Below, one piece after another: positions 29,558 through 42,169 of a stretch of 64,000 nt of DNA. How positions within the stretch are numbered: the first letter of the stretch is position 1; every line of letters starts with the position of its first letter. The DNA lies in assembly GCA_016788425.1 (NCBI GenBank), contig JAEURQ010000002.1, forward strand, positions 992,001 to 1,056,000, given 5' to 3'. Both the position numbers and the translations under genes were made by a program. Source of the DNA: Chthonomonas sp. (lineage in GTDB: Bacteria > Armatimonadota > Fimbriimonadia > Fimbriimonadales > Fimbriimonadaceae). Below the pieces are notes generated by a model. That model ran no database searches and had not been told where the DNA came from. It saw only the letters and a program-made list of their open reading frames with translations.

Positions 29558-31729
29558 ATGAGTTTTCCCGCCTCCACCAAGGTGTGTGTGATCGGTGCTG
29601 GCACCATGGGCAGCGGCATCGCCGCCCTGCTGGCCAACCTTGGCTTTCAGGTGACCCTGCTGGACCAAACGGCAGCCTCGGCGAAGGCCGGTTTAGATCG
29701 CGCGCGCAACATGCGTCCGCCGCACTTCTACTCGGCGAATCACGCCGAAAGCATTCGCGTCGGCGGCATTGACGAGAATCTCGATTGGGTCCGCGAAGCC
29801 GACTGGGTGTGCGAGGCGATTATTGAAAAGCTGGACGCCAAGAAGAACCTCTACGCGTTGATTGAGCCGCTCGTCCGGCCCGAAGCTCTGGTCTCCACCA
29901 ACACCAGCGGTCTGCAAATTGAACTGCTGATTGAGGGCCGCAGCGACGACTTCTGCCGCAAGTTTGTGGGTACCCACTTCTTCAATCCGCCGCGCTATCT
30001 TAAGCTCCTGGAACTCATCCCCACTTCGCGCACGGACACCGCGATCCTGCAGAATTACGTCGAGTTTTTGGAGGAGCATGTGGCTCGCCGCGTGGTGCTC
30101 GCCAAAGACACACCCGGATTTATCGCCAACCGCTACGGTATGTGGAGCATGTTCCACGCGACCCACATCGCCGAGAAGTTGCAGCTTCCGATTGAGGCCG
30201 TAGACGCGATCACCGGGCCGTTCCTGGGACGTCCGCGAAGCGGCTCGTTCCGCCTCAACGACCTGGTCGGCATGGACATCATGGTGGATATCGCCGCGAA
30301 TCTGCGCGAGCGTTGCCCCCAAGACCCTCGGACCGACGCGCTGGCCACGCCAAAGTCCATTGAGTTCTTACTGAGCCAGGGCCACCTTGGCGCGAAGTCC
30401 GGCATGGGCTTTTATCGCAAGGAAGGCAAAGAGCTTCTGGCGCTCGACCTGACCACCCACGCCTATCGACAGCAACTGCCAGTGAGTATTCCAAGCCTCG
30501 AAAAATTTGCCAAGATGCCGCTCGGCGAGCGCATCCGCGCGACCCTGACCGAACGCGACGAGGCGGCCGAGTTCCTGCGCCTCTACTTGATCCCGACCTT
30601 GCGCTACGCCGAAGAACTGCGCGCCGAGATCAGCCACTCGGTGGAAGATTTTGACCGCGTGATGATGTGGGGATTCGGTTGGGAAATGGGTCCGTTTGCC
30701 CTCATCGACGCGATTGGCCGCGACGCCCTCGGTTGGTCGGAAGCGCCGCCCAACTTCCAAGGCAAGGAGCAGCTCGACTTCACCGGCATCTACGTCAACC
30801 GCAAAGTCGAACCGCAGTTTGCGACAATCCACGAGTTTCCCGTGACCGAAACCGGCGAAGGCTTCAATGTGCGGGACCTCGGCGACGGCGTTCGGGCGAT
30901 CACCACGACCACCAAGATGGGGACTTACAACCCCGCGGTGTGTCGAGCGCTCACCGCCTGGCTCAACGGAACTACCGGGCCGCTCGTGCTCACCAGCGAG
31001 GCGAAGCACTTCTCGCTCGGATTCGATTTGCGCGTCTTTAGCGAGGCGATGGCCGCCAAGGACATGGATATGGTCAACGACGGGCTGCTCGCTCTGCAGG
31101 GCCTCGCCGACACGCTGAGCAAGAAGCAGGTGGTCGCCGCGATTTTTGGTTACACATTGGGCGGAGGACTTGAAATGGCCATGGGCTGCCCGCAGGTGAT
31201 CGCTCACTCGGAAAGCATGATCGGCCTGCCCGAAGTGCGGGTCGGCCTTCTGCCCGGCGGCGCCGGCACCTGCGAGCTTCGACGCCGCGCGGGGAGCAAT
31301 CTCAAGCTCATCGCTCACTACGCGAAGTCCGCGATGTCGGGTGCGGTGACGACGAACGCCTTTGAAGGCTTTGGTCTCGGCTACCTTCGCGCGAGCGACG
31401 TGATCGCTCCGCACTCCGACCGCTTGCTCCACGACGCCAAGCAACTTGCGTTGAACCTGCAAGTGCAGGAACCAGCGAAGTGGGAAATGCCCGAAGGGCC
31501 GCTCGTGGGCGTGGTTGATCGCGTGATTGACGAACTGAAAACCGGCAGCGACTGGGCGCCCTACGACGAGCACGTGTGCGAGGCGATCAAGTGGACGATG
31601 ACCAAGCCCGGCACCTGGACCGAGGCGGTTGCCCGCGAGCGCGAGGAATTCGTCAAGCTTTGCCAGCACGGCAACACCGTGCTGCGCGTGCAGCACATGC
31701 TCGACGTCGGCAAGCCGCTGCGCAACTAG
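29558..31729 (+). CDS. 3-hydroxyacyl-CoA dehydrogenase / enoyl-CoA hydratase fusion
   Basis: A 723-residue beta-oxidation enzyme. Residues 1-400 are the NAD-dependent 3-hydroxyacyl-CoA dehydrogenase: VCVIGAGTMGSGIAALLA, VSTNTSGLQI, GTHFFNPPRYLKLLEL, with the catalytic His and Glu. A second C-terminal dehydrogenase subdomain lies around 310-410. Residues 440-700 are enoyl-CoA hydratase/isomerase: FGYTLGGGLEMAMGC and IGLPEVRVGLLPGGAGT. The order is dehydrogenase-hydratase, as in Bacillus FadN, opposite to E. coli FadB. The ATG at 29558 lies 7 nt after a TATCCT box. No thiolase gene is nearby. Confidence 0.92.
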   Translation: MSFPASTKVCVIGAGTMGSGIAALLANLGFQVTLLDQTAASAKAGLDRARNMRPPHFYSANHAESIRVGGIDENLDWVREADWVCEAIIEKLDAKKNLYALIEPLVRPEALVSTNTSGLQIELLIEGRSDDFCRKFVGTHFFNPPRYLKLLELIPTSRTDTAILQNYVEFLEEHVARRVVLAKDTPGFIANRYGMWSMFHATHIAEKLQLPIEAVDAITGPFLGRPRSGSFRLNDLVGMDIMVDIAANLRERCPQDPRTDALATPKSIEFLLSQGHLGAKSGMGFYRKEGKELLALDLTTHAYRQQLPVSIPSLEKFAKMPLGERIRATLTERDEAAEFLRLYLIPTLRYAEELRAEISHSVEDFDRVMMWGFGWEMGPFALIDAIGRDALGWSEAPPNFQGKEQLDFTGIYVNRKVEPQFATIHEFPVTETGEGFNVRDLGDGVRAITTTTKMGTYNPAVCRALTAWLNGTTGPLVLTSEAKHFSLGFDLRVFSEAMAAKDMDMVNDGLLALQGLADTLSKKQVVAAIFGYTLGGGLEMAMGCPQVIAHSESMIGLPEVRVGLLPGGAGTCELRRRAGSNLKLIAHYAKSAMSGAVTTNAFEGFGLGYLRASDVIAPHSDRLLHDAKQLALNLQVQEPAKWEMPEGPLVGVVDRVIDELKTGSDWAPYDEHVCEAIKWTMTKPGTWTEAVAREREEFVKLCQHGNTVLRVQHMLDVGKPLRN

Positions 31730-32136
31730 TCGATTTCGAGGTTGTTGAACCGCTTTTCGACCGCCGGTACTTCGGCCGAGAGGATTCGATAGGCGGTTTC
31801 GATGCGGGCGTGGAGTTCTTCCGAGAGGCGACGTTCCTCGGTGCCGACCACAAATTTGGCGGGGTCGCTGCGCTTGCTCAGCCGCTCATACGCGCGGCGC
31901 ACATCCGTGAACGGCGCGCCTTCCGGGACGCCCAAAATCTTGCGCGCGATCTCCTGCTGATTGATCGGCTCGGCGCTCGGTGCCTGAGTTGTCGGCGCGG
32001 CATCCACCCCGCCGGGACTGAGCGAGGCGTTGAGTTCCTCGCGAGCGGCCGCGTCCGAATCGAGGTCGCGAATGCGATCCATGTGATGGTTGACGTAACC
32101 TCGAAGTAAGTCGTAAGCGCGGCGCGAACTGCCCAT
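31726..32136 (-). CDS. J-domain-like protein lacking HPD motif
   Basis: A 136-residue protein whose second half resembles a J-domain: ARKILGVPEGAPFTDVRRAYERLSKRSDPAKF followed by helices EERRLSEELHARIETAYRIL. The spacing fits DnaJ helices I-IV, but the Hsp70-stimulating His-Pro-Asp is absent (KRSDPAKF instead). The N-terminal 50 residues are charged and helical. Such degenerate J proteins act as adaptors rather than Hsp70 activators. A TAAAAT box (32146-32151) lies 9 nt before the ATG. It is convergent with the beta-oxidation gene, overlapping it by 4 bp. Confidence 0.6.
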   Translation of the reverse strand: MGSSRRAYDLLRGYVNHHMDRIRDLDSDAAAREELNASLSPGGVDAAPTTQAPSAEPINQQEIARKILGVPEGAPFTDVRRAYERLSKRSDPAKFVVGTEERRLSEELHARIETAYRILSAEVPAVEKRFNNLEID

Positions 32137-34288: not shown

Positions 34289-35029
34289 TTAGGATACTAG
34301 GTTCAAGGACTGCAGGACAGCGACCGTGGCGGGCAGCGGCTTGTGCGCGTACTCCACCCAAAAGTCGTACACGAGGCGGATGGATTCGGCGAGGAACTTC
34401 ATCTTCGCGGGCGGACGCTCGAGGGGTGTAAGGGCGGCGAGCCCGAGCAATACTTCGGCCCGCACCTGAAATCGGTCGGGCGCGTCGCGGTGCGCACCCG
34501 CAGAAAGATATCCGCCGACCATCGGCGAGACCCACGCCGGGTTTTCAGCGACGGCCACGCCGGTCTCAACGCAGCGGTTCCAACTCGGCTGGCGTCCTTC
34601 GTGATCCATCAGTTGCAGCGCCGACCAAAGGAAGCACGTGCCCGGGTTCTCGTGCAGGCTAAGGTACGTCAGGCTCAGCTTGAACAGGTCAAAGAGTTCC
34701 GCTGCGCCTTGTTCGCTCACGGCGATCGCTTCGACGATTTCGGCCAGGGCAAGCCCAAACGTCAGGCGTTCGTAGTCGGTGCGCAGTTCGCGGAAGGATT
34801 GCAACGGTACCGCCTGGGTGACGTAGGCACGCCGCGGGCCACTCGAAAGATGAAGATTCGCCTCGCAGAGGGGTTCGCTGATGCCGGCCAGCCGCGAGCC
34901 GCTCTTGCGCGAGCCGCGGGCGATTGCCTCCAATTTGCCCTGCTCTCGGCAAAGCAGGGTGAGTCGGCGGTCCGACTCACCCTGATCCCGCCGCCGCAAC
35001 ACGATGGCGTGAACGCTTTGCTCGGCCAC
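34289..35029 (-). CDS. recO: DNA repair protein RecO
   Basis: A 246-residue recombination mediator that helps RecR load RecA on SSB-coated gaps. The N-terminal OB-fold starts HAIVLRRRDQGESDRRLTLLCREQGKLEAIARGSRKS, diagnostic for RecO. The C-terminal helical part (YERLTFGLALAEIVEA, SLTYLSLHENPGTCFLWSALQL) fits. The four-cysteine zinc site present in some RecO proteins is missing here. Its start overlaps the stop of the membrane gene upstream by one base, so recO is translationally coupled to the uncharacterised membrane cluster. Confidence 0.9.
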   Translation of the reverse strand: MAEQSVHAIVLRRRDQGESDRRLTLLCREQGKLEAIARGSRKSGSRLAGISEPLCEANLHLSSGPRRAYVTQAVPLQSFRELRTDYERLTFGLALAEIVEAIAVSEQGAAELFDLFKLSLTYLSLHENPGTCFLWSALQLMDHEGRQPSWNRCVETGVAVAENPAWVSPMVGGYLSAGAHRDAPDRFQVRAEVLLGLAALTPLERPPAKMKFLAESIRLVYDFWVEYAHKPLPATVAVLQSLNLVS

Positions 35030-35769
35030 TATTCCATCTTAAAAACGGTTCGCTTGAAGAACTCGATGAAGATGTAGAAGAGGCGGTCAATGACGAGCGT
35101 AAAGCGCATCAGAACCGTGCTGCCGAAGATCGCGCCAAGGCCGACCATCAGGATGTAGCGACCCAGTTTGTTGGTGCTCGCAATGAACTTGTTCTTCAAG
35201 TCGAAACTAAAGAAGAAGTAGCTGAGAACCGTGATGAAGGTGATGACCAACGCCAGGTTCGTCAAGGCTTCGCTCGGATAGACCTCCGCCCCGATTCGCG
35301 TGATGTCCGCGTTGCTCAGACCTGCGGTTCCCGGAACCGTAAACCGCGTCATGTTGGTCGGATAGATCGGCTGCATCGTGTTCAACAGCTGCGGAATCCA
35401 ACCGTTGTTGAACACCTGAATCTGCTGACCCGCCCAAAGGCCGATGATGATGAGGATCGGAATCCGGCTCATCCACGCGTTCTTCTTGCTGAACGCCATG
35501 TAGCCCATCATCGCGATCGGCAGCAGGGCGGCGTACATCCAAAACGCGGGCTGAGTATCAGCCGCCGTTTCGCCAACGCGCCCAAAGGCTTGGTCGTACC
35601 AGTCAGTGCGAACTGTTTCCTTCCAGTAGCTGATGATCGCGAAGCCGCTCGCCAGACCCAGGAAGATGTGCTCGACCAATCGGTAGAACTTGTTTTCCCG
35701 GTAGAGAACCGAGTAGAGGCCGATGGTAACCAGGACCCCAGTGACAATTTTCAGTGTGCCGTAGTCCAT
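35029..35769 (-). CDS. Membrane protein of the DUF6754-associated cluster (last gene)
   Basis: A 246-residue membrane protein with about six helices (near residues 7-24, 31-48, 76-94, 103-120, 168-188, 202-222). A loop of about 50 residues between helices 4 and 5 (NNGWIPQLLNTMQPIYPTNM) probably faces outside. The N-terminus LKIVTGVLVTIGLYSVLYRE and the RLVEHIFLGLASGFA segment look conserved-type rather than random. No known family recognised. It lies 1 nt after the previous gene and overlaps recO by one base. Confidence 0.75.
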   Translation of the reverse strand: MDYGTLKIVTGVLVTIGLYSVLYRENKFYRLVEHIFLGLASGFAIISYWKETVRTDWYDQAFGRVGETAADTQPAFWMYAALLPIAMMGYMAFSKKNAWMSRIPILIIIGLWAGQQIQVFNNGWIPQLLNTMQPIYPTNMTRFTVPGTAGLSNADITRIGAEVYPSEALTNLALVITFITVLSYFFFSFDLKNKFIASTNKLGRYILMVGLGAIFGSTVLMRFTLVIDRLFYIFIEFFKRTVFKME

Positions 35770-35770
35770 G

Positions 35771-36730
35771 TTATTTGCCTCCGTTCCGCTTACTCATCAG
35801 GAGTCCAACGTTGCCGATGATCACGAGGATGATCAGCAAGGCTAAAGCAAAGTGCAGGGCCGGATAGTAGGCCATCGCCCGATCCATGTTTTTCTTACCC
35901 GGGAAGCCTTCGATGTACTTGCCGGCGTACTTGGGATTGTTCGTCTTGACCGCTTCCTTGGGAGCGGACGCCAAACTTTCGTGAGCGAGGCCGCGCTCCA
36001 TCATGCCTTCGATGTCGTACACGCCCTTAATCCCGCCGCTCAGGCCAGTGAGCTGCCCGGATTTGTGATACGGGAGAGCTTCGGGAGACATAACCCCCGT
36101 GAGCATCGCGACGATGGGGATTTTGCCGGCGAGTCGGTCGGTGACGATCTGCCACGAACCGGTGCCGGTGACGATGACCAATGCGCTGAAGTCACTGAGT
36201 TTCTTGACGTTCTGCAAGACCGGTGAATCTTTGGCGAACCCGGGCGAGCCATCCGTCTTAAACGAACGGTTGGCGGCGAGGGCCTTACCCATGTCTTGCT
36301 CAAACGCCTTGACGGTCGCTTCAAGACCGGGCTTTACGCCGAGGTCCACGTAATCGTCCCAGCGCCTGTACTCCTTGCCACCCGCGTCGAGGTTTTCTTT
36401 CGACAATCGAGCGATGGTGGTGCGAGCAACGGCGATGTTAATCGGGTCCACCGAGTAAAAGGCGAACTTGATCTCTTGCCGCATGAGCATGCGCATCAGA
36501 GCTTCGAATTGGCCACCCGATTCGCCGCGTGTGCTCAGCGACCAGTCGGTTTCGATGAGGACCGGTTTATCCTTCGAGAGTTCGCGGAGCGTGGCAAACG
36601 CGTCAATCGAACTCGCCTCGGGCTCATTGGGAATCTTGCAGCTGAGGAAGAGCGGGAGTCCCGCAAACAGAATGAGTAGCACGTACAGTGTGTGCGAGCT
36701 CAAACCTTGGAGCTTTCGTCCGATATCCAT
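35771..36730 (-). CDS. Membrane-anchored alpha/beta domain protein of the DUF6754-associated cluster
   Basis: A 319-residue protein anchored at both ends: an N-terminal helix (residues 14-32, ending in LSC, a poor lipobox) and a C-terminal helix (residues 287-310, LHFALALLIILVIIGNVGLL). The 250 residues between look like a Rossmann-type alpha/beta domain, with strands KPVLIETDW, IKFAFYSVD, ALVIVTGTGSW and IPIVAMLTGVM and an internal repeat-free layout. A glycine-rich segment QLTGLSGGIKGVYDIEG follows. The soluble part most likely lies outside the membrane. Function unknown. Overlaps the upstream gene by one base (TAATG). Confidence 0.75.
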   Translation of the reverse strand: MDIGRKLQGLSSHTLYVLLILFAGLPLFLSCKIPNEPEASSIDAFATLRELSKDKPVLIETDWSLSTRGESGGQFEALMRMLMRQEIKFAFYSVDPINIAVARTTIARLSKENLDAGGKEYRRWDDYVDLGVKPGLEATVKAFEQDMGKALAANRSFKTDGSPGFAKDSPVLQNVKKLSDFSALVIVTGTGSWQIVTDRLAGKIPIVAMLTGVMSPEALPYHKSGQLTGLSGGIKGVYDIEGMMERGLAHESLASAPKEAVKTNNPKYAGKYIEGFPGKKNMDRAMAYYPALHFALALLIILVIIGNVGLLMSKRNGGK

Positions 36731-37650
36731 TAGTTACCCGTCCCCTTTTCGAGTCCCAGCCAGAGTCGCAGGCCCATGGCCAACGCCCCGACGGCAATCC
36801 CGAAGTTAATCGCCCGTAGGCTTCCCGATTGAATCGTCCCGCGAATCCAGGCCGCGATTTCGCTAAGCTTCAAGTTGTTCAACAAGTGAGAGGATTCGCC
36901 TCCGGTCCACCTCTCGACCATGCTCGTCGAAAGTTGCGCGACGGCCCCCATGTTGGCGAGAATCAGGATCAGCGCGGTGGCGAGCAGCACGGTTGATTCC
37001 ACGCTGCGAATGCGGAACGCCCGATAGGCGGCGCTCAGAATGAAGAAGGCGATGATGGAGAACATCGTCGCGTCCATCTGCTGGAACATGCCATCGAACA
37101 GGAAGTCGAACCCGTAGACTGAAAGCCAATTGAACCCACTCAGCTTGGCCCAGTTATCCATGAGCTCAAGGTCGGGATTCAGTTCACGAAGGTGGTAGTC
37201 CCACACGCCGAACGTCAGCATGAGCAGGAACGAAACCAGCAGAACAACACTGAACGACCAGTTCTCCTGCTTCCTTCGAACCCGCGTCACGTGCAGCCTC
37301 ACCAGGCTAAACGTACCAAGCCCAATGAGGAAGGCGGTGAGAACGTTGCTGAACCGGCCGACGTGGGTTGCCCCGTCATCGAGCCAGAACTTGACGGCTT
37401 CCATGGTGTTGCGCGGAAGTTCGCCGGGATCGCGCCCGATCGGATCGGGGAGCAGGTATTGGAAAATATAGTAGCTACCGCAAACAAAGGGGATAACCCA
37501 CAGAATGTACTTGCGGAACTGCGTCGGCAGGAAGTAGCACAGCGCAAAGAATGCGAGGCCGATAAACAAGCCGAGCAGCGTCTTGCCATTGAATCCGGGC
37601 GCGGCTTGCCAGAACGTCAAGTCCTGGGCTTGCATCAAGAATTGGTTCAC
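36730..37650 (-). CDS. Eight-helix membrane protein of the DUF6754-associated cluster
   Basis: A 306-residue membrane protein with about eight helices (for example LLGLFIGLAFFALCYFLP, ILWVIPFVCGSYYIFQYLL, FSVVLLVSFLLMLTFGVWDY, MFSIIAFFILSAAYRAF, TVLLATALILILANMGAV). A long extracytoplasmic-type loop follows the second helix (DPIGRDPGELPRNTMEAVKF). No family recognised. The start is coupled to the DUF6754-like gene by ATGA (37647-37650) and the stop to the next by TAATG, so stoichiometric production is likely. Confidence 0.75.
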   Translation of the reverse strand: MNQFLMQAQDLTFWQAAPGFNGKTLLGLFIGLAFFALCYFLPTQFRKYILWVIPFVCGSYYIFQYLLPDPIGRDPGELPRNTMEAVKFWLDDGATHVGRFSNVLTAFLIGLGTFSLVRLHVTRVRRKQENWSFSVVLLVSFLLMLTFGVWDYHLRELNPDLELMDNWAKLSGFNWLSVYGFDFLFDGMFQQMDATMFSIIAFFILSAAYRAFRIRSVESTVLLATALILILANMGAVAQLSTSMVERWTGGESSHLLNNLKLSEIAAWIRGTIQSGSLRAINFGIAVGALAMGLRLWLGLEKGTGN

Positions 37651-38567
37651 TTCGTGGCCTCCGCCGTTTCCTTCTGTCGCGGATTACGCTCCTTCCACAC
37701 CTCAACTTCTTCCGGAGTCATGGCGTCGGGTGAAAGGTACTTCGTCATCGTAAAATCAGCTTTGCCGTTGTTAATCCATTGGGGCTGTTCACCGTTCGGG
37801 CCAGGATCACTTGGCTTTTTCTCACGCACTTCCCACGAAGTAAGCAGGCTGCCCGCGATCACCAGTAAGGCGCTGGCGATCTTCGCCCAGTCTTGACCCA
37901 CGAGTGAACCGACCAAGATCGGCTCACGCGACAGGTAGGCGCTGGCGGCGTAGTATTCGTCGCCGATGAGAACGTAGTCGCACGAGGCGATGAAGAACGG
38001 GGTTTGCGTGGTCGAGGTCGTGCCCGCCACCTGGATCGCGCCCATGGCGTTGGCCGATTCGGCGAAGATAAGCGATTCGGCAAAGAACTCGCCGAGCAGG
38101 AACGCGGCGGCGACCTTTTCGCGGCGAATGAGGCCGCTTACGCCCGCGGCAAATGCAAACTGCTGGTTCGAAAGGAACTGCACGTAGTCGTTTTGGTAAC
38201 GATCCATCGCGCCTTCCCGCATGTACACGTCGCGGATGACTTCCTGCGCCACGGTAAAGACCGCCGGCTCACCGCAACAAACGCGGATGGGCGTGGCGAA
38301 CTTGATACAGATGCCGGTGACGTATTGAAAGACGTTGAGCGCCTGCACGGCGATGGCGTTGAGGCCACCAAGACCAGGCACCATCAGAACCGGGCGCCCC
38401 ATTTCGGTGGCCCGCCCGACGGCGTCATCAATTGCGTTGAGGCCGGCGATGCGGCGAATAAATAGGTTCCCTCCGGACCGTTTCGCCCGCCATATGTTCA
38501 AGAGAATGAACAGACAGAAGGTGATCGTGATCAGATATGGCACCCAACCATAACCTTGATATTGCAT
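37647..38567 (-). CDS. DUF6754-like membrane protein
   Basis: A 306-residue protein. One N-terminal helix (residues 9-26), then a soluble domain resembling, from memory, DUF6754: MGRPVLMVPGLGGLNA, VAQEVIRDVYMREGAMDRYQ, VQFLSNQQFAFAAGV, FFAESLIFAESANAMGAIQ, IASCDYVLIGDEYYAASAYL and SREPILVGSLVGQD. A second helix sits at residues 238-254, followed by a charged tail. The domain function is unknown to me. It is the most recognisable member of this operon and the handle for finding relatives. Confidence 0.75.
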   Translation of the reverse strand: MQYQGYGWVPYLITITFCLFILLNIWRAKRSGGNLFIRRIAGLNAIDDAVGRATEMGRPVLMVPGLGGLNAIAVQALNVFQYVTGICIKFATPIRVCCGEPAVFTVAQEVIRDVYMREGAMDRYQNDYVQFLSNQQFAFAAGVSGLIRREKVAAAFLLGEFFAESLIFAESANAMGAIQVAGTTSTTQTPFFIASCDYVLIGDEYYAASAYLSREPILVGSLVGQDWAKIASALLVIAGSLLTSWEVREKKPSDPGPNGEQPQWINNGKADFTMTKYLSPDAMTPEEVEVWKERNPRQKETAEATK

Positions 38568-38875
38568 TAGGCGGATTGCTCCTTGTTGTCGGGTTGTAGG
38601 CGCGACTCTTCAAGCGCGTTGATGAGCCGTTCCCAATTCTCCCTTTTGGAGAGAAGACGAGTGTAGTCGTCAAAAGCATCAAAACCCAAAAATGGGATGA
38701 GCATTGGCGATACCGTGACGGCCAGCGTCGCGCCGACATTCGCGAGCGGCTTGTGCATTTCGAGGGCGAAGATAGCGGGAGTCTCCATACGGTACTTATG
38801 CACCCTCGCCGCGATCTTCTCGATCAGTTGATCGATCTGCTCCGGCGTCAGCTCCTCCTTCCAAAGTTCCTTCAT
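38567..38875 (-). CDS. Small protein of the DUF6754-associated cluster
   Basis: A 102-residue protein starting MKELWKEELTPEQIDQLIEK, with one moderately hydrophobic segment near residues 50-65 (VGATLAVTVSPMLIPFLGF). The ATG at 38875 has a very strong Shine-Dalgarno (GGAGG, 4 nt away), unusual in this window; an ATG seven codons upstream lies before that site and is less likely. The first 80 nt overlap the 3' end of the preceding gene in another frame. The stop overlaps the DUF6754-like start as TAATG. Confidence 0.7.
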   Translation of the reverse strand: MKELWKEELTPEQIDQLIEKIAARVHKYRMETPAIFALEMHKPLANVGATLAVTVSPMLIPFLGFDAFDDYTRLLSKRENWERLINALEESRLQPDNKEQSA

Positions 38876-39287
38876 CCTTCCTCCAAAGTCCCGCAATTTT
38901 AGCCAAAACTTCCTCGCGGTTGCTTGAGAATCTTAACCTAACTCCGCGGAAGCGGTCAAGCTTTGATTGCTTAGAAAACGGAGATAAGAGCACATTTGTG
39001 CCCTCATCTTCCACACGTTGCACCAAATCCCAGGTGATTTCACTGGCAATGAAGCCACATTTCGCCTGCGCGGATTTTTCGTCGAGGCGAAACTTAAGCG
39101 GAAAAAACAGTTCGAGCGAGCTTCCGAGAATGGCGAGCAACCCGAACAAACCGGCGATGAGGTTGTGCGTGAGCAGAAATCCGAGCACCCCGACGATCAC
39201 CGCCACCGACCCAACAATCACCCGATTGATAGGCTTGGCCTGCGGCAGCATGACCTGCCATTCCAAGGGTGCCGACTCGCCGCTCAT
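38796..39287 (-). CDS. Two-helix membrane protein with PH-like domain, first gene of the cluster
   Basis: A 163-residue protein: two close membrane helices (residues 21-58, VIVGSVAVIVGVLGFLLT and LIAGLFGLLAILGSSLELFF) followed by a strand-rich region (PLKFRLDEKSAQAKCGFIAS, ITWDLVQRVEDEGTNVLLS, FRGVRLRFSS) resembling bacterial PH/YcxB-like membrane domains. The last 27 residues are low complexity (GADAGADRSTDRED) and are encoded in the 80-nt overlap with the next gene, so they may simply be a by-product of that overlap. It starts 3 nt after the prs stop. Confidence 0.7.
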   Translation of the reverse strand: MSGESAPLEWQVMLPQAKPINRVIVGSVAVIVGVLGFLLTHNLIAGLFGLLAILGSSLELFFPLKFRLDEKSAQAKCGFIASEITWDLVQRVEDEGTNVLLSPFSKQSKLDRFRGVRLRFSSNREEVLAKIAGLWRKDEGTLEGGADAGADRSTDREDRGEGA

Positions 39288-39290
39288 GCG

Positions 39291-40250
39291 CTATCTCCAG
39301 TTTTCGAAGATGCCGCTGACCGATTCGTTGTTATGAATACGGCGGATGGCCTCGCCCACCAGCGGCGCGCAATGCAGCACATGCAGCTTGGGGAATCGCT
39401 TTTCGCTGGCGATGGGAATCGTGTCCGTGACGACAACCTTTGAAATCACGCTGTCTTGCAGGCGCTGGCTGGCGTTGCCGCTGAGCACCGGGTGGCTTGC
39501 GCAAACGATAATCTCGGTCGCGCCGCGCTTCATCAGCTGTTCAGCACCCATCACGACGCTTCCGCCGGTGTCAATCATGTCGTCAATGACCACGCACTTT
39601 TTGCCCGCGACATCACCGATGATTTCGATGATGTCCACCTTGTTGGGTTCGGGACGACGTTTGGCGATGATGGCCAGCGGGGCCTTGAGGCGCTCAGCCA
39701 GGCTTCGAGCGCGACTCACGCCACCCACGTCCGGGCTCACGACCACAACATCTTCTTCGGGGCTGATGGTCTCCTCAAAGTGGCGAGCCAAAATCGGGCC
39801 GGCGTAAAGGTGATCCACCGGGATGTCAAAGAAACCTTGAATCTGTTCGGCGTGAAGGTCCACACAGACAATGCGGTTAGCCCCCGCCACCGTAAGCAGG
39901 TCGGCGATCAGTCGAGCGGTAATCGGTTCGCGCGGCTTGACCTTTTTATCTTGGCGGGCATATCCAAAGTAAGGCATCACCACGGTGATGCGCTGGGCGC
40001 TGGCGCGGCGGAAGGCATCCAGCAAGATCAGCAGTTCCATGATGCTGTCGTTGGCGGGCGCGCAAGTCGGCTGAATCACGAAAACGTCGTTCCCGCGGGC
40101 GCTCTCATCAATCATCAGACGGATTTCGCCGTCGCTAAACTTGGTTGACGTCGCCGATCCCAGGTGAATGCCCAGATAATCCGCGACGCGCTCGCCGAGT
40201 TCGCGGTGCGCGTTGCCGCAGAATAGCCGAAGCCGATTATCCAAGTTCAT
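39291..40250 (-). CDS. prs: Ribose-phosphate pyrophosphokinase (PRPP synthase)
   Basis: The 319-residue enzyme makes PRPP from ribose 5-phosphate and ATP for nucleotide, His and Trp synthesis. Signatures: FCGNAHRELGERVADYLG, FSDGEIRLMIDESARG, QPTCAPANDSIMELL, MPYFGYARQDKK, VDLHAEQIQGFFDIPVDHLY and the PRPP-binding CVVIDDMIDTGGSV. The ATG at 40250 is used, 2 nt after the glmU stop; upstream in-frame codons would extend into glmU. GlmU-Prs adjacency is common in bacteria. It sits between glmU and the uncharacterised membrane cluster in one long transcript. Confidence 0.96.
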   Translation of the reverse strand: MNLDNRLRLFCGNAHRELGERVADYLGIHLGSATSTKFSDGEIRLMIDESARGNDVFVIQPTCAPANDSIMELLILLDAFRRASAQRITVVMPYFGYARQDKKVKPREPITARLIADLLTVAGANRIVCVDLHAEQIQGFFDIPVDHLYAGPILARHFEETISPEEDVVVVSPDVGGVSRARSLAERLKAPLAIIAKRRPEPNKVDIIEIIGDVAGKKCVVIDDMIDTGGSVVMGAEQLMKRGATEIIVCASHPVLSGNASQRLQDSVISKVVVTDTIPIASEKRFPKLHVLHCAPLVGEAIRRIHNNESVSGIFENWR

Positions 40251-40252
40251 GC

Positions 40253-41644
40253 TTAAGGAGTCCCCTTCCGTTGCTTGTAGCGTGCTGCCCATTGTGGTTT
40301 TTCTTCCGTTCTCGCTCGTCCGATTCCGAGCGAATCCGCTTCAATATCCTTGGTGATTGTGCTGCCCGCGGCAATGTATGCGCCGTCACCAATGGTTAAG
40401 GGTGCAACCAACGTGGAGTTGGTCCCGACGAAGGTATTCGCGCCGATGGTGGTTCGGTGCTTGGCATAGCCGTCGTAGTTGCACGTGATCGTCCCGGCCC
40501 CGATGTTTGTGCCGTCGCCAACGGTGGCGTCGCCCAAATAAGCCAGGTGCCCGGCGGCGACTTTGTCGCCAAGCTGAGCGTTTTTCAGTTCCACAAAATT
40601 TCCGATCTTGCAGCCGCGGCCCACGGTGCTTCCGGGCCGGATGTGCGCGTAGGGGCCGACTTTGACTCCGTCGGCGACCTTGGAGGCTTGCACCTGGCTT
40701 TGGCGCACCCAGCACTCGCGCCCAATTTCGGCGTCAATGATGACGCTCATGGGGCCAATGATGGAGCCCGCGCCGATGCGGGTCTTCCCCCGAAGTGTGG
40801 TCATCGGCTCGATCAGGCAATCGGGCTCCAATTCCACGTCGGGCTCAATGAAGGTGGTGGCGGGATCCACGATGGTCACGCCGTTCATGGCGTGCTCGCG
40901 CAGTAGGCGTCGGCGCAGAATTTCGCCGGCCTCGGCGAGTTCCCAGCGGTTGTTGACGCCCTTGAAGATGCTCTCGTCGGGGAACTCGACAATGCCGACT
41001 CGGTCGCCATCTTCCACCATAAACCGCAGCACGTCGGTGAGGAGATACTCCTCCTGAGCGTTGTTCTTGTCCAGCCGAGGCAGAATCGCGCGGAGCCGCG
41101 CCGCATCAAAACAATAGACCGCCGAGTTCACCTCGCCGATCTTGCGTTCTTCTTCGTTGCAGTCCTTGGCCTCGACAATCTTGGCGAAGTCGCCGCTCGC
41201 GTTGCGGACAATGCGGCCATAGTTGCCCGCATCGGGCACGGTGAAGGTCGCGACCACGGCGGCAAACCCGCCCTGGTTGAACAGTTCTAGCACCTGCGCC
41301 AAACCCTCGCGATTAAGCAGCGGCGTGTCGCCGGGCGTCAGCAGGACCGGACCTTCGAAATCCGGCAGGGATCGCATCGCCATTTTCGCCGCGTGCCCCG
41401 TGCCTTCTTGGGTCTCCTGCATCTCGAACAGGTAGTTCGGATCGGTGAGTGAGGCTTGCAATTGGCTCGCGCCATGACCCACCACGAGCACCGGAGTTTC
41501 CACGCCGAGCGCCTTCATCGCGCGGCCGATATGCTCAACCATGGCCAGTCCGCAAACCGGGTGGGCGCACTTGGGCAACTCAGATTTCATCCGGGTTCCC
41601 TTCCCGGCGGCGAGTATCACCCCAGCGACGCGTCTTTGAGCCAT
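40253..41644 (-). CDS. glmU: Bifunctional GlcN-1-P acetyltransferase / UDP-GlcNAc pyrophosphorylase
   Basis: The 463-residue enzyme performs the last two steps of UDP-GlcNAc synthesis for peptidoglycan and lipid A. Residues 1-235 are the uridyltransferase (VILAAGKGTRMKSELPK, QEGTGHAA, GDTPLL, GEVNSAVYCF). Residues 255-463 are a left-handed beta helix acetyltransferase (IRPGSTVGRGCKIGNFVELKN, NYDGYAKHRTTIG with the catalytic His region). Length fits. First gene of the long minus-strand block. A TAGATT box lies 12 nt before the ATG, less ideal than the usual 6-9 nt here. Confidence 0.96.
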   Translation of the reverse strand: MAQRRVAGVILAAGKGTRMKSELPKCAHPVCGLAMVEHIGRAMKALGVETPVLVVGHGASQLQASLTDPNYLFEMQETQEGTGHAAKMAMRSLPDFEGPVLLTPGDTPLLNREGLAQVLELFNQGGFAAVVATFTVPDAGNYGRIVRNASGDFAKIVEAKDCNEEERKIGEVNSAVYCFDAARLRAILPRLDKNNAQEEYLLTDVLRFMVEDGDRVGIVEFPDESIFKGVNNRWELAEAGEILRRRLLREHAMNGVTIVDPATTFIEPDVELEPDCLIEPMTTLRGKTRIGAGSIIGPMSVIIDAEIGRECWVRQSQVQASKVADGVKVGPYAHIRPGSTVGRGCKIGNFVELKNAQLGDKVAAGHLAYLGDATVGDGTNIGAGTITCNYDGYAKHRTTIGANTFVGTNSTLVAPLTIGDGAYIAAGSTITKDIEADSLGIGRARTEEKPQWAARYKQRKGTP

Positions 41645-41791
41645 AAACGAAACGTTAATCTACCCGTTTGAAGCAAAAAGGGGCTGGAAAACTAATCCCC
41701 GCAAAACTACTGGCTTTCCGGCTTAAGCAAGGTTTTCGACCAAAGACTCGCTATAACGGTGGTGTCCGGCAATTTTGCCAAGGAATTTGTT
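41645..41791. promoter_or_regulatory. Divergent region between glmU and the blue-copper gene
   Basis: A 147-bp gap. Plus strand: TATAAC at 41752-41757 would place transcription start near 41764, and AAGGA (41780-41784) is a good ribosome-binding site for the ATG at 41792. Minus strand: TAGATT about 12 nt from the glmU ATG. The middle holds GGGG...CCCC and GGCTTTCCGG-type short repeats that can fold, but no family-specific RNA could be assigned. Confidence 0.4.
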
Positions 41792-42169
41792 ATGCGTATT
41801 TTCGTGTGTCTCGCCCTCGTGGGCTCGTGTGTGGCGGCTCAGGCCGCCCTCTTCAATGTGGATATCCGCAACTTTGCGTTTAGTCCCGACATGCTCACCA
41901 TCAATGTGGGCGACCAGGTGCGTTGGACGAACAACGATTTTGCCCCGCACACCGCCAGCAGCACGGCCGGGCCGATGTCGTTCAACAGCGGGACTCTGGG
42001 CAATGGCCAATCGTTCACCTTTACGTTCACCGCGGCGGGCAGCTACGACTACATGTGCAACTTCCACCACGACATGATGGGGAGCGTGAACGTGGTGCCG
42101 GAACCTAGTTCGATCCTGGCGATGGGCCTAGCTGGCCTGATCCTGATGCGTCGCCGACGCTCAAACTAA
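41792..42169 (+). CDS. PEP-CTERM-anchored blue-copper (plastocyanin-like) protein
   Basis: A 125-residue exported protein: signal peptide (MRIFVCLALVGSCVAAQA), a cupredoxin domain, and a PEP-CTERM tail (VPEPSSILAMGLAGLILM then RRRR). Type 1 copper ligands can be read: His in FAPHTASS, then Cys, His and Met in YMCNFHHDMMG, matching plastocyanin and halocyanin. The tail is the substrate signal of the exosortase system, which transfers proteins to the cell surface. Likely a surface-attached electron carrier. AAGGA ribosome-binding site. Its last 65 bp overlap the convergent cyclase gene. Confidence 0.88.
   Translation: MRIFVCLALVGSCVAAQAALFNVDIRNFAFSPDMLTINVGDQVRWTNNDFAPHTASSTAGPMSFNSGTLGNGQSFTFTFTAAGSYDYMCNFHHDMMGSVNVVPEPSSILAMGLAGLILMRRRRSN

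Follow-up and report, generated by a model that had tools for sequence, protein, structure and literature searches.

DUF6754 (PF20539) is a protein family defined without a function, a gene cassette, partners or a fold. A full member of this family is encoded by the third of six genes (g1 to g6) at positions 35029-39287 of a 64,000-nucleotide stretch, hereafter the window, of a Chthonomonas sp. genome of 2.67 Mb (Armatimonadota, Fimbriimonadaceae; assembly GCA_016788425.1, contig JAEURQ010000002.1, positions 992,001 to 1,056,000). The present analysis indicates that g1 to g6 very probably make up one functional system with two soluble proteins encoded elsewhere in the same genome, a likely ATPase of the MutL type and a protein with a barrel-sandwich (BSH) signal and a KOW-like end (BSH-KOW).

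Other described proteins come close to parts of this system. Members of the GlmL/MutL family (PF13941, TIGR01319 and NF040745) are accessories of glutamate mutase, and the MutL partner shares with them the PF13941 domain and the phosphate motifs; it differs in scoring below the GlmL cut-offs, in its longer C-terminus, in being tied to a membrane cassette and in being found in genomes that lack glutamate mutase E (21 of 22). CdhB and MT0777 come near g3 and g5 in fold, and transhydrogenase domain III comes near g3, although Z scores of the size obtained may reflect no more than the general Rossmann layout; in sequence, g3 and g5 resemble none of the solved chains except in the fn3 domain. Group II energy-coupling factor (ECF) transporters, which are non-homologous, are comparable in logic only, in that several membrane modules per genome are served by one shared energising module; here the likely ATPase identified is the actin-fold MutL in place of ABC ATPases, and g4 and g6 match no Pfam transporter family above cut-off.

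No paper on DUF6754, PF20539 or IPR046642 was found in the open-access literature, subscription journals lying outside the search, and an open-access search on GlmL/MutL returned nothing relevant. The main text of a catalogue of unknown families in uncultivated taxa (PMC10849945) names neither Armatimonadota nor any DUF. The proposal that the six genes are unlike any known transporter, secretion system or respiratory complex stands, since none was recognised in searches of Pfam, NCBIfam, PADLOC and solved structures. Because no paper names DUF6754 and no known system was recognised, the system as a whole is rated new, and its single parts include the known domains fn3, MutL and KOW-like.

Results

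Unlinked genes are retained or lost as a unit

DUF6754 was detected in 252 of 291 Armatimonadota genomes, in 181 of the 194 near-complete ones and in none of 14 well-known control genomes, and the operon set is core to the phylum. When six protein profiles were applied to 40 flanking regions, g1-g2-g3-g4-g5-g6 was the single order in nearly all Armatimonadota families. The original prediction had deduced a core function from the seat of the genes in a housekeeping block, with glmU-prs upstream and recO downstream. The core status stands but the argument from position does not, because these flanks are confined to the window's own family and the set is seated elsewhere in other Armatimonadota and in other phyla; the seat is therefore a local accident and no evidence of core function.

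The six genes had been described correctly but are not the complete set, since the two soluble partners belong to it as well. In deep Armatimonadota and several other phyla, the operon also carries the genes for MutL (PF13941) and BSH-KOW, for example in the order g1-g6-mutL-bsh at locus L172. The window's genome has the cassette on contig C2, MutL on C4 (474719-476209) and BSH-KOW on C1 (124151-125263).

The eight genes g1-g6, mutL and bsh are kept or lost together. The near-complete genomes without DUF6754 include ten (G001-G003, G046, G048, G049, G051, G132, G133 and G253) in which neither MutL nor BSH-KOW was found, apart from a marginal MutL match in G253 (8e-5); g4, g5 and g6 were searched for in five of the ten (G001-G003, G132 and G133) and were not found. 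Presence or absence is the same for MutL and DUF6754 in 127+10 of 141 near-complete Armatimonadota (Fisher p 5e-12); the counts were compiled by hand and the statistic ignores phylogeny, so that counting independent losses gives a fairer picture. The ten genomes fall into four families (f6, f13, f1 and f41), which implies that the set was lost at least four times. Eight of the ten retain PilM, an unrelated actin-like protein, and a ninth gave a weak match to it, indicating that incomplete assembly does not explain the joint absence. Departures from the pattern were seen in three genomes with MutL and BSH-KOW in which DUF6754 was not detected (G004, G012 and G196; assemblies in 440-1060 contigs, where an assembly gap is possible) and in G197, where a cassette gene is accompanied by a marginal match to MutL and, at the end of a contig, by part of BSH-KOW.

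G132 and G133 belong to the window's own family and measure 1.5 Mb. Besides the cassette, MutL and BSH-KOW, they have lost PilM mostly or entirely, and they are possibly reduced, host-dependent lineages.

A four-gene cassette is the conserved core

When 84,980 species genomes were scanned to look beyond the phylum, at least 575 DUF6754 stretches were found, of which the best 80 were used for the phylum list. These came from Armatimonadota, WOR-3/Stahlbacteria, Zixibacteria, Latescibacterota, Eisenbacteria, Poribacteria, Planctomycetota (anammox), Cloacimonadota, Fermentibacteria, Edwardsbacteria, Coatesbacteria, Methylomirabilota and others. All loci with g3, g4, g5 and g6 have them on one strand (111/111), and 107 of the 111 have them in strict order; the remaining four seem to reflect open reading frame (ORF) calls that are split or overlap. 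Median gaps within g3-g4-g5-g6 across loci are 12, 0.5 and -1 nt. Because strand and order are kept in this way, g3-g4-g5-g6 is taken as the core cassette, with which g1 and g2 go only in part. The proposal of one conserved gene set is thereby confirmed, as relatives do not occur singly in unrelated contexts, and across genomes the four families are kept together, in one order, in more than 12 phyla. An exception to linkage is G067 (family f2), where the parts are scattered over three contigs (C2, C5 and C6). In family f2 (L044 and G067), one g4 ORF has 536 aa.

The cassette has also been multiplied. Two complete cassettes stand in tandem in eight loci and three in another eight. In arrays of the Zixibacteria type, copies 1, 2 and 3 are mostly closest to the same-numbered copy in other genomes, for all four genes, and paralogue distances within one genome correlate between the four genes (r 0.79-0.91, 32 pairs). 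Duplication and divergence thus affect g3-g4-g5-g6 as a whole, and this speaks for a physical or functional match among the members of a cassette. The complete chromosomes CP070705.1 (WOR-3) and CP070824.1 (Zixibacteria) each carry six DUF6754 matches, one of them partial in CP070824.1, together with one MutL and one BSH-KOW. Several draft genomes have three DUF6754 to one MutL, and some drafts have at least two MutL-type matches.

The six genes of the window

All six ORFs were confirmed at their coordinates on the minus strand, and they are regarded as genes and not chance ORFs because their profile matches in many phyla keep the same order. The gene g1 (38796-39287, 163 aa; profile relatives at 46 loci, with g2 downstream) encodes a helical hairpin at the N-terminus followed by a beta-rich tail which, read by eye, is possibly PH-like. 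The small helical protein g2 (38567-38875; relatives at 53 loci) has 102 aa when counted from the ATG at 38875, which is preceded by GGAGG. The 306-aa g3 (37647-38567) consists of a transmembrane helix, a Rossmann-like domain predicted to be cytoplasmic and a second transmembrane helix; its assignment as DUF6754-like was correct, as residues 9-247 match PF20539 at 298.9 bits (cut-off 27; 3e-89). The polytopic membrane protein g4 (36730-37650, 306 aa; relatives at 116 loci) has the conserved motifs SAAYRAFR and GxER. The 319-aa g5 (35771-36730) is built of an N-in transmembrane helix, a Rossmann-like domain predicted to be extracytoplasmic and a C-terminal transmembrane helix, with E70, Q226, G229, G233, G236, E241 and N307 invariant in the alignment. 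A second polytopic membrane protein, g6 (35029-35769, 246 aa; relatives at 111 loci), has invariant S20, E33 and Q127. Eight helices had been proposed for g4, for which hydropathy gives six to seven; the six proposed for g6 are allowed by hydropathy, as are seven. No Pfam or NCBIfam family was matched by g1, g2, g4, g5 or g6, and g4 and g6 of the window and of two relatives gave no Pfam family above cut-off, including the EcfT/ABC membrane families.

The tight packing described in the original prediction, with gaps of at most 3 nt or overlaps, was borne out at all junctions. The longest gap, 3 nt, separates prs and g1; g2/g3, g3/g4 and g4/g5 overlap by 1, 4 and 1 nt, g5/g6 are spaced by 1 nt and g6/recO overlap by 1 nt. 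The genes g1 and g2 overlap by 80 nt (38796-38875) in different frames; the same family repeats long overlaps, and the deep relative L070 has no g1/g2 overlap.

Two Rossmann-like domains are predicted on opposite faces of the membrane

AlphaFold2 models of g3 and g5, built from alignments of window and loci sequences, reached mean pLDDT values of 87.6 and 87.0, respectively. The models have an identical order of elements between the two anchors, namely a helix and then six strands alternating with helices, and the earlier description of g5 as a double-anchored Rossmann-like protein agrees with its model and fold matches. Over ~140 residues, CdhB (epsilon subunit of CODH/ACDS, 3cf4_G) gave Z 10.5 with g3 and 8.6 with g5; the values were 10.0 and 9.1 for MT0777, and 10.0 and 7.3 for the RCK domain of MthK. 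Transhydrogenase domain III matched g3 at Z 10.3 over 137-140 residues, a level reached by many unrelated Rossmann folds, and g3 also resembles universal stress proteins. Foldseek against the PDB gave nothing below 1e-3 for either protein (best E 3.5e-3), and the safe statement is therefore that the fold is Rossmann-like. Profile searches of solved structures with g3-g6 found nothing besides fn3 in g3 relatives, and sequence homology between g3 and g5 was not supported when their profiles were compared with each other.

The bias in charge on either side of the anchor helices places the g3 domain inside and the g5 domain outside, so that the two proteins are predicted to present a shared Rossmann-like fold on opposite membrane faces. 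Deep g3 relatives have an extracytoplasmic fn3 domain ahead of the first transmembrane helix, which fits the cytoplasmic placing of the g3 domain. In g3 relatives of Cloacimonadota and Mcinerneyibacteriota (L132, 5811-8744 and 11081-14083; L136; L085, 567-4049), ~700-900 residues with almost no recognisable domains precede DUF6754. The g3 consensus has no GxGxxG-type dinucleotide loop, and g3-g6 lack a set of conserved Cys/His residues that could bind Fe-S or haem, g3 having one invariant Cys.

The two soluble partners

MutL of the window's genome scores 433 bits against Pfam MutL (cut-off 27), and the partner matches PF13941 at ~1e-126. It stays below the NCBIfam cut-offs for GlmL, with 173.5-175 against 204 bits (TIGR01319) and 223.3-226 against 475 bits (NF040745). 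The actin-fold phosphate motifs DCGSTTTK and DIGGATTD are conserved, and the protein is likely an ATPase.

BSH-KOW has ~375 aa, with a barrel-sandwich signal like that of RnfC, NqrA and biotinyl domains. RnfC_N matched 18 of 25 family members and NQRA_N matched nine of 25 weakly; the C-terminus was KOW-like in three of 25 (best E 0.006). No Cys or His is conserved at 85% in the family alignment.

Links to known systems were also considered. A link to glutamate mutase was rejected because PF06368 is missing in 21 of 22 MutL-bearing genomes, and a link to the type IV pilus or type II secretion system assembly platform because PilM is present in 26 of 27 genomes with or without the cassette. An anti-phage defence system was rejected because none of the eight proteins had a credible match in PADLOC-DB.

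Neighbouring genes

In the window, g1 is preceded by prs (39291-40292) and g6 is followed by recO (34289-35029), both identified with Pfam; the further flanking genes glmU and hisS were identified by reading their sequences. A small cupredoxin-like protein with a PEP-CTERM sorting signal is encoded at 41759-42169 (plus strand), divergent from glmU, and an ORF downstream of hisS (31726-32136, minus strand) has a C-terminal part that reads by eye as J-domain-like.

Neighbours met at other loci were 2-hydroxyacid dehydrogenase, pyruvate phosphate dikinase, dehydroquinate (DHQ) synthase, GcvP, a TonB plug and a sigma factor. In seven loci, namely L133 (12286-15120) and another six of the Zixibacteria type, a gene of the pyruvate phosphate dikinase type comes after the cassette array. 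Large genes lie downstream of g6 in L142, L147, L148 and L112, the one in L112 encoding a carboxypeptidase-regulatory domain and a TonB plug. No recurrent secreted or S-layer gene and no recurrent output or regulator gene was seen near the loci.

Discussion

The joint losses and joint duplications described above concern proteins that probably form a physical complex, which may be stoichiometric. The best overall explanation, to which a probability of about 0.38 is assigned, is an eight-component system in which a shared soluble ATP module energises membrane transporter or translocator cassettes. According to this explanation, g4 and g6 would form the membrane body, g3 would offer a cytoplasmic docking face to the MutL/BSH-KOW module, and ATP-driven cycling of that module would change the state of the path through g4 and g6. 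On the outside, g5, with the fn3 part of g3 where present, would bind a substrate or an envelope partner, and one soluble energising module could serve several membrane cassettes. Such a system may represent a new class of machine, a proposal that falls a little short of even odds, in which MutL and a BSH-KOW adaptor serve one to six interchangeable cassettes. Each cassette would combine two polytopic subunits with two Rossmann-like subunits that share a fold and lie on opposite sides of the membrane, and the class would be a core trait of Armatimonadota and widespread among uncultured phyla. That the activity is ATP-energised transport is put forward tentatively, as less likely than not.

Several points weigh against transport. 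No fold match of g3 or g5 singles it out, and no gene that would name a substrate was seen in the locus contexts. The genes around the loci, outside the eight, have no common theme and vary in context by phylum. ATP binding by MutL is deduced from its motifs, the contact of the membrane cassette with the soluble module is likewise inferred, and the topologies predicted for g3 and g5 depend on the positive-inside rule. A KOW domain is also more usual in a transcription or translation factor than in a transporter.

An envelope assembly or scaffold system, although unlikely, survives best among the alternatives. Here the periplasm or outer envelope would be organised by g5 and the fn3 part of g3, with MutL driving assembly or remodelling in the way that the actin-fold proteins PilM and GspL act on the platforms of pilus and type II secretion systems. 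The extracytoplasmic fn3 domains, the long and variable N-terminal regions of g3 (up to ~900 aa) and the multiplied cassettes would suit such a role, and the phyla with the cassette are taken as mostly two-membrane bacteria. The occurrence of the cassette is, however, independent of PilM, and the absence of a recurrent secreted or S-layer gene near the loci does not favour it.

A membrane sensor, in which g5 would sense an outside signal, g3 would relay it in the manner of RCK or universal stress proteins and MutL/BSH-KOW would act on gene expression via KOW, is considered distinctly unlikely. The resemblance of both domains to MthK RCK, that of g3 to universal stress proteins and the KOW-like C-terminus of some BSH-KOW members are consistent with it, but two conserved polytopic proteins exceed what a sensor needs, and no recurrent output or regulator gene accompanies the loci.

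Still less probable is an ion-pumping redox complex with the logic of Nqr/Rnf or of proton-translocating transhydrogenase, with BSH-KOW as peripheral subunit and the Rossmann-like domains binding nucleotides. The RnfC_N and NQRA_N matches and the closeness of g3 to transhydrogenase domain III point towards it, the latter at a Z of ~10 that is common to many unrelated Rossmann folds. The lack of a conserved Cys/His set in BSH-KOW and g3-g6, and thus of conserved metal ligands, disfavours redox pumping, and g3 has no GxGxxG-type loop.

The idea that MutL is an accessory of a cobalamin-dependent mutase, as the family name suggests, with its co-occurrence with the cassette reflecting that metabolism, draws on PF13941 and the GlmL-family similarity and is very improbable, given GlmL scores under the NCBI cut-offs, an operon shared by MutL and the cassette in many loci, and the absence of glutamate mutase E from all but one of the MutL-bearing genomes surveyed, the window's included (one weak partial match; no search was made for other B12 mutases).

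The eight-component system, read here as energised membrane cassettes, is a near-universal membrane system of Armatimonadota that is often multi-copy elsewhere and has no assigned function or description in the searched literature. It is also present in anammox bacteria, Zixibacteria, WOR-3, Cloacimonadota, Poribacteria, Latescibacteria and others. Its recognition as one eight-part system merges eight separate unknowns into a single testable question and, with MutL and BSH-KOW, supplies the missing partners for reconstitution. It also suggests a testable role for a branch of GlmL/MutL whose present name comes from an enzyme that is missing in most of these genomes.

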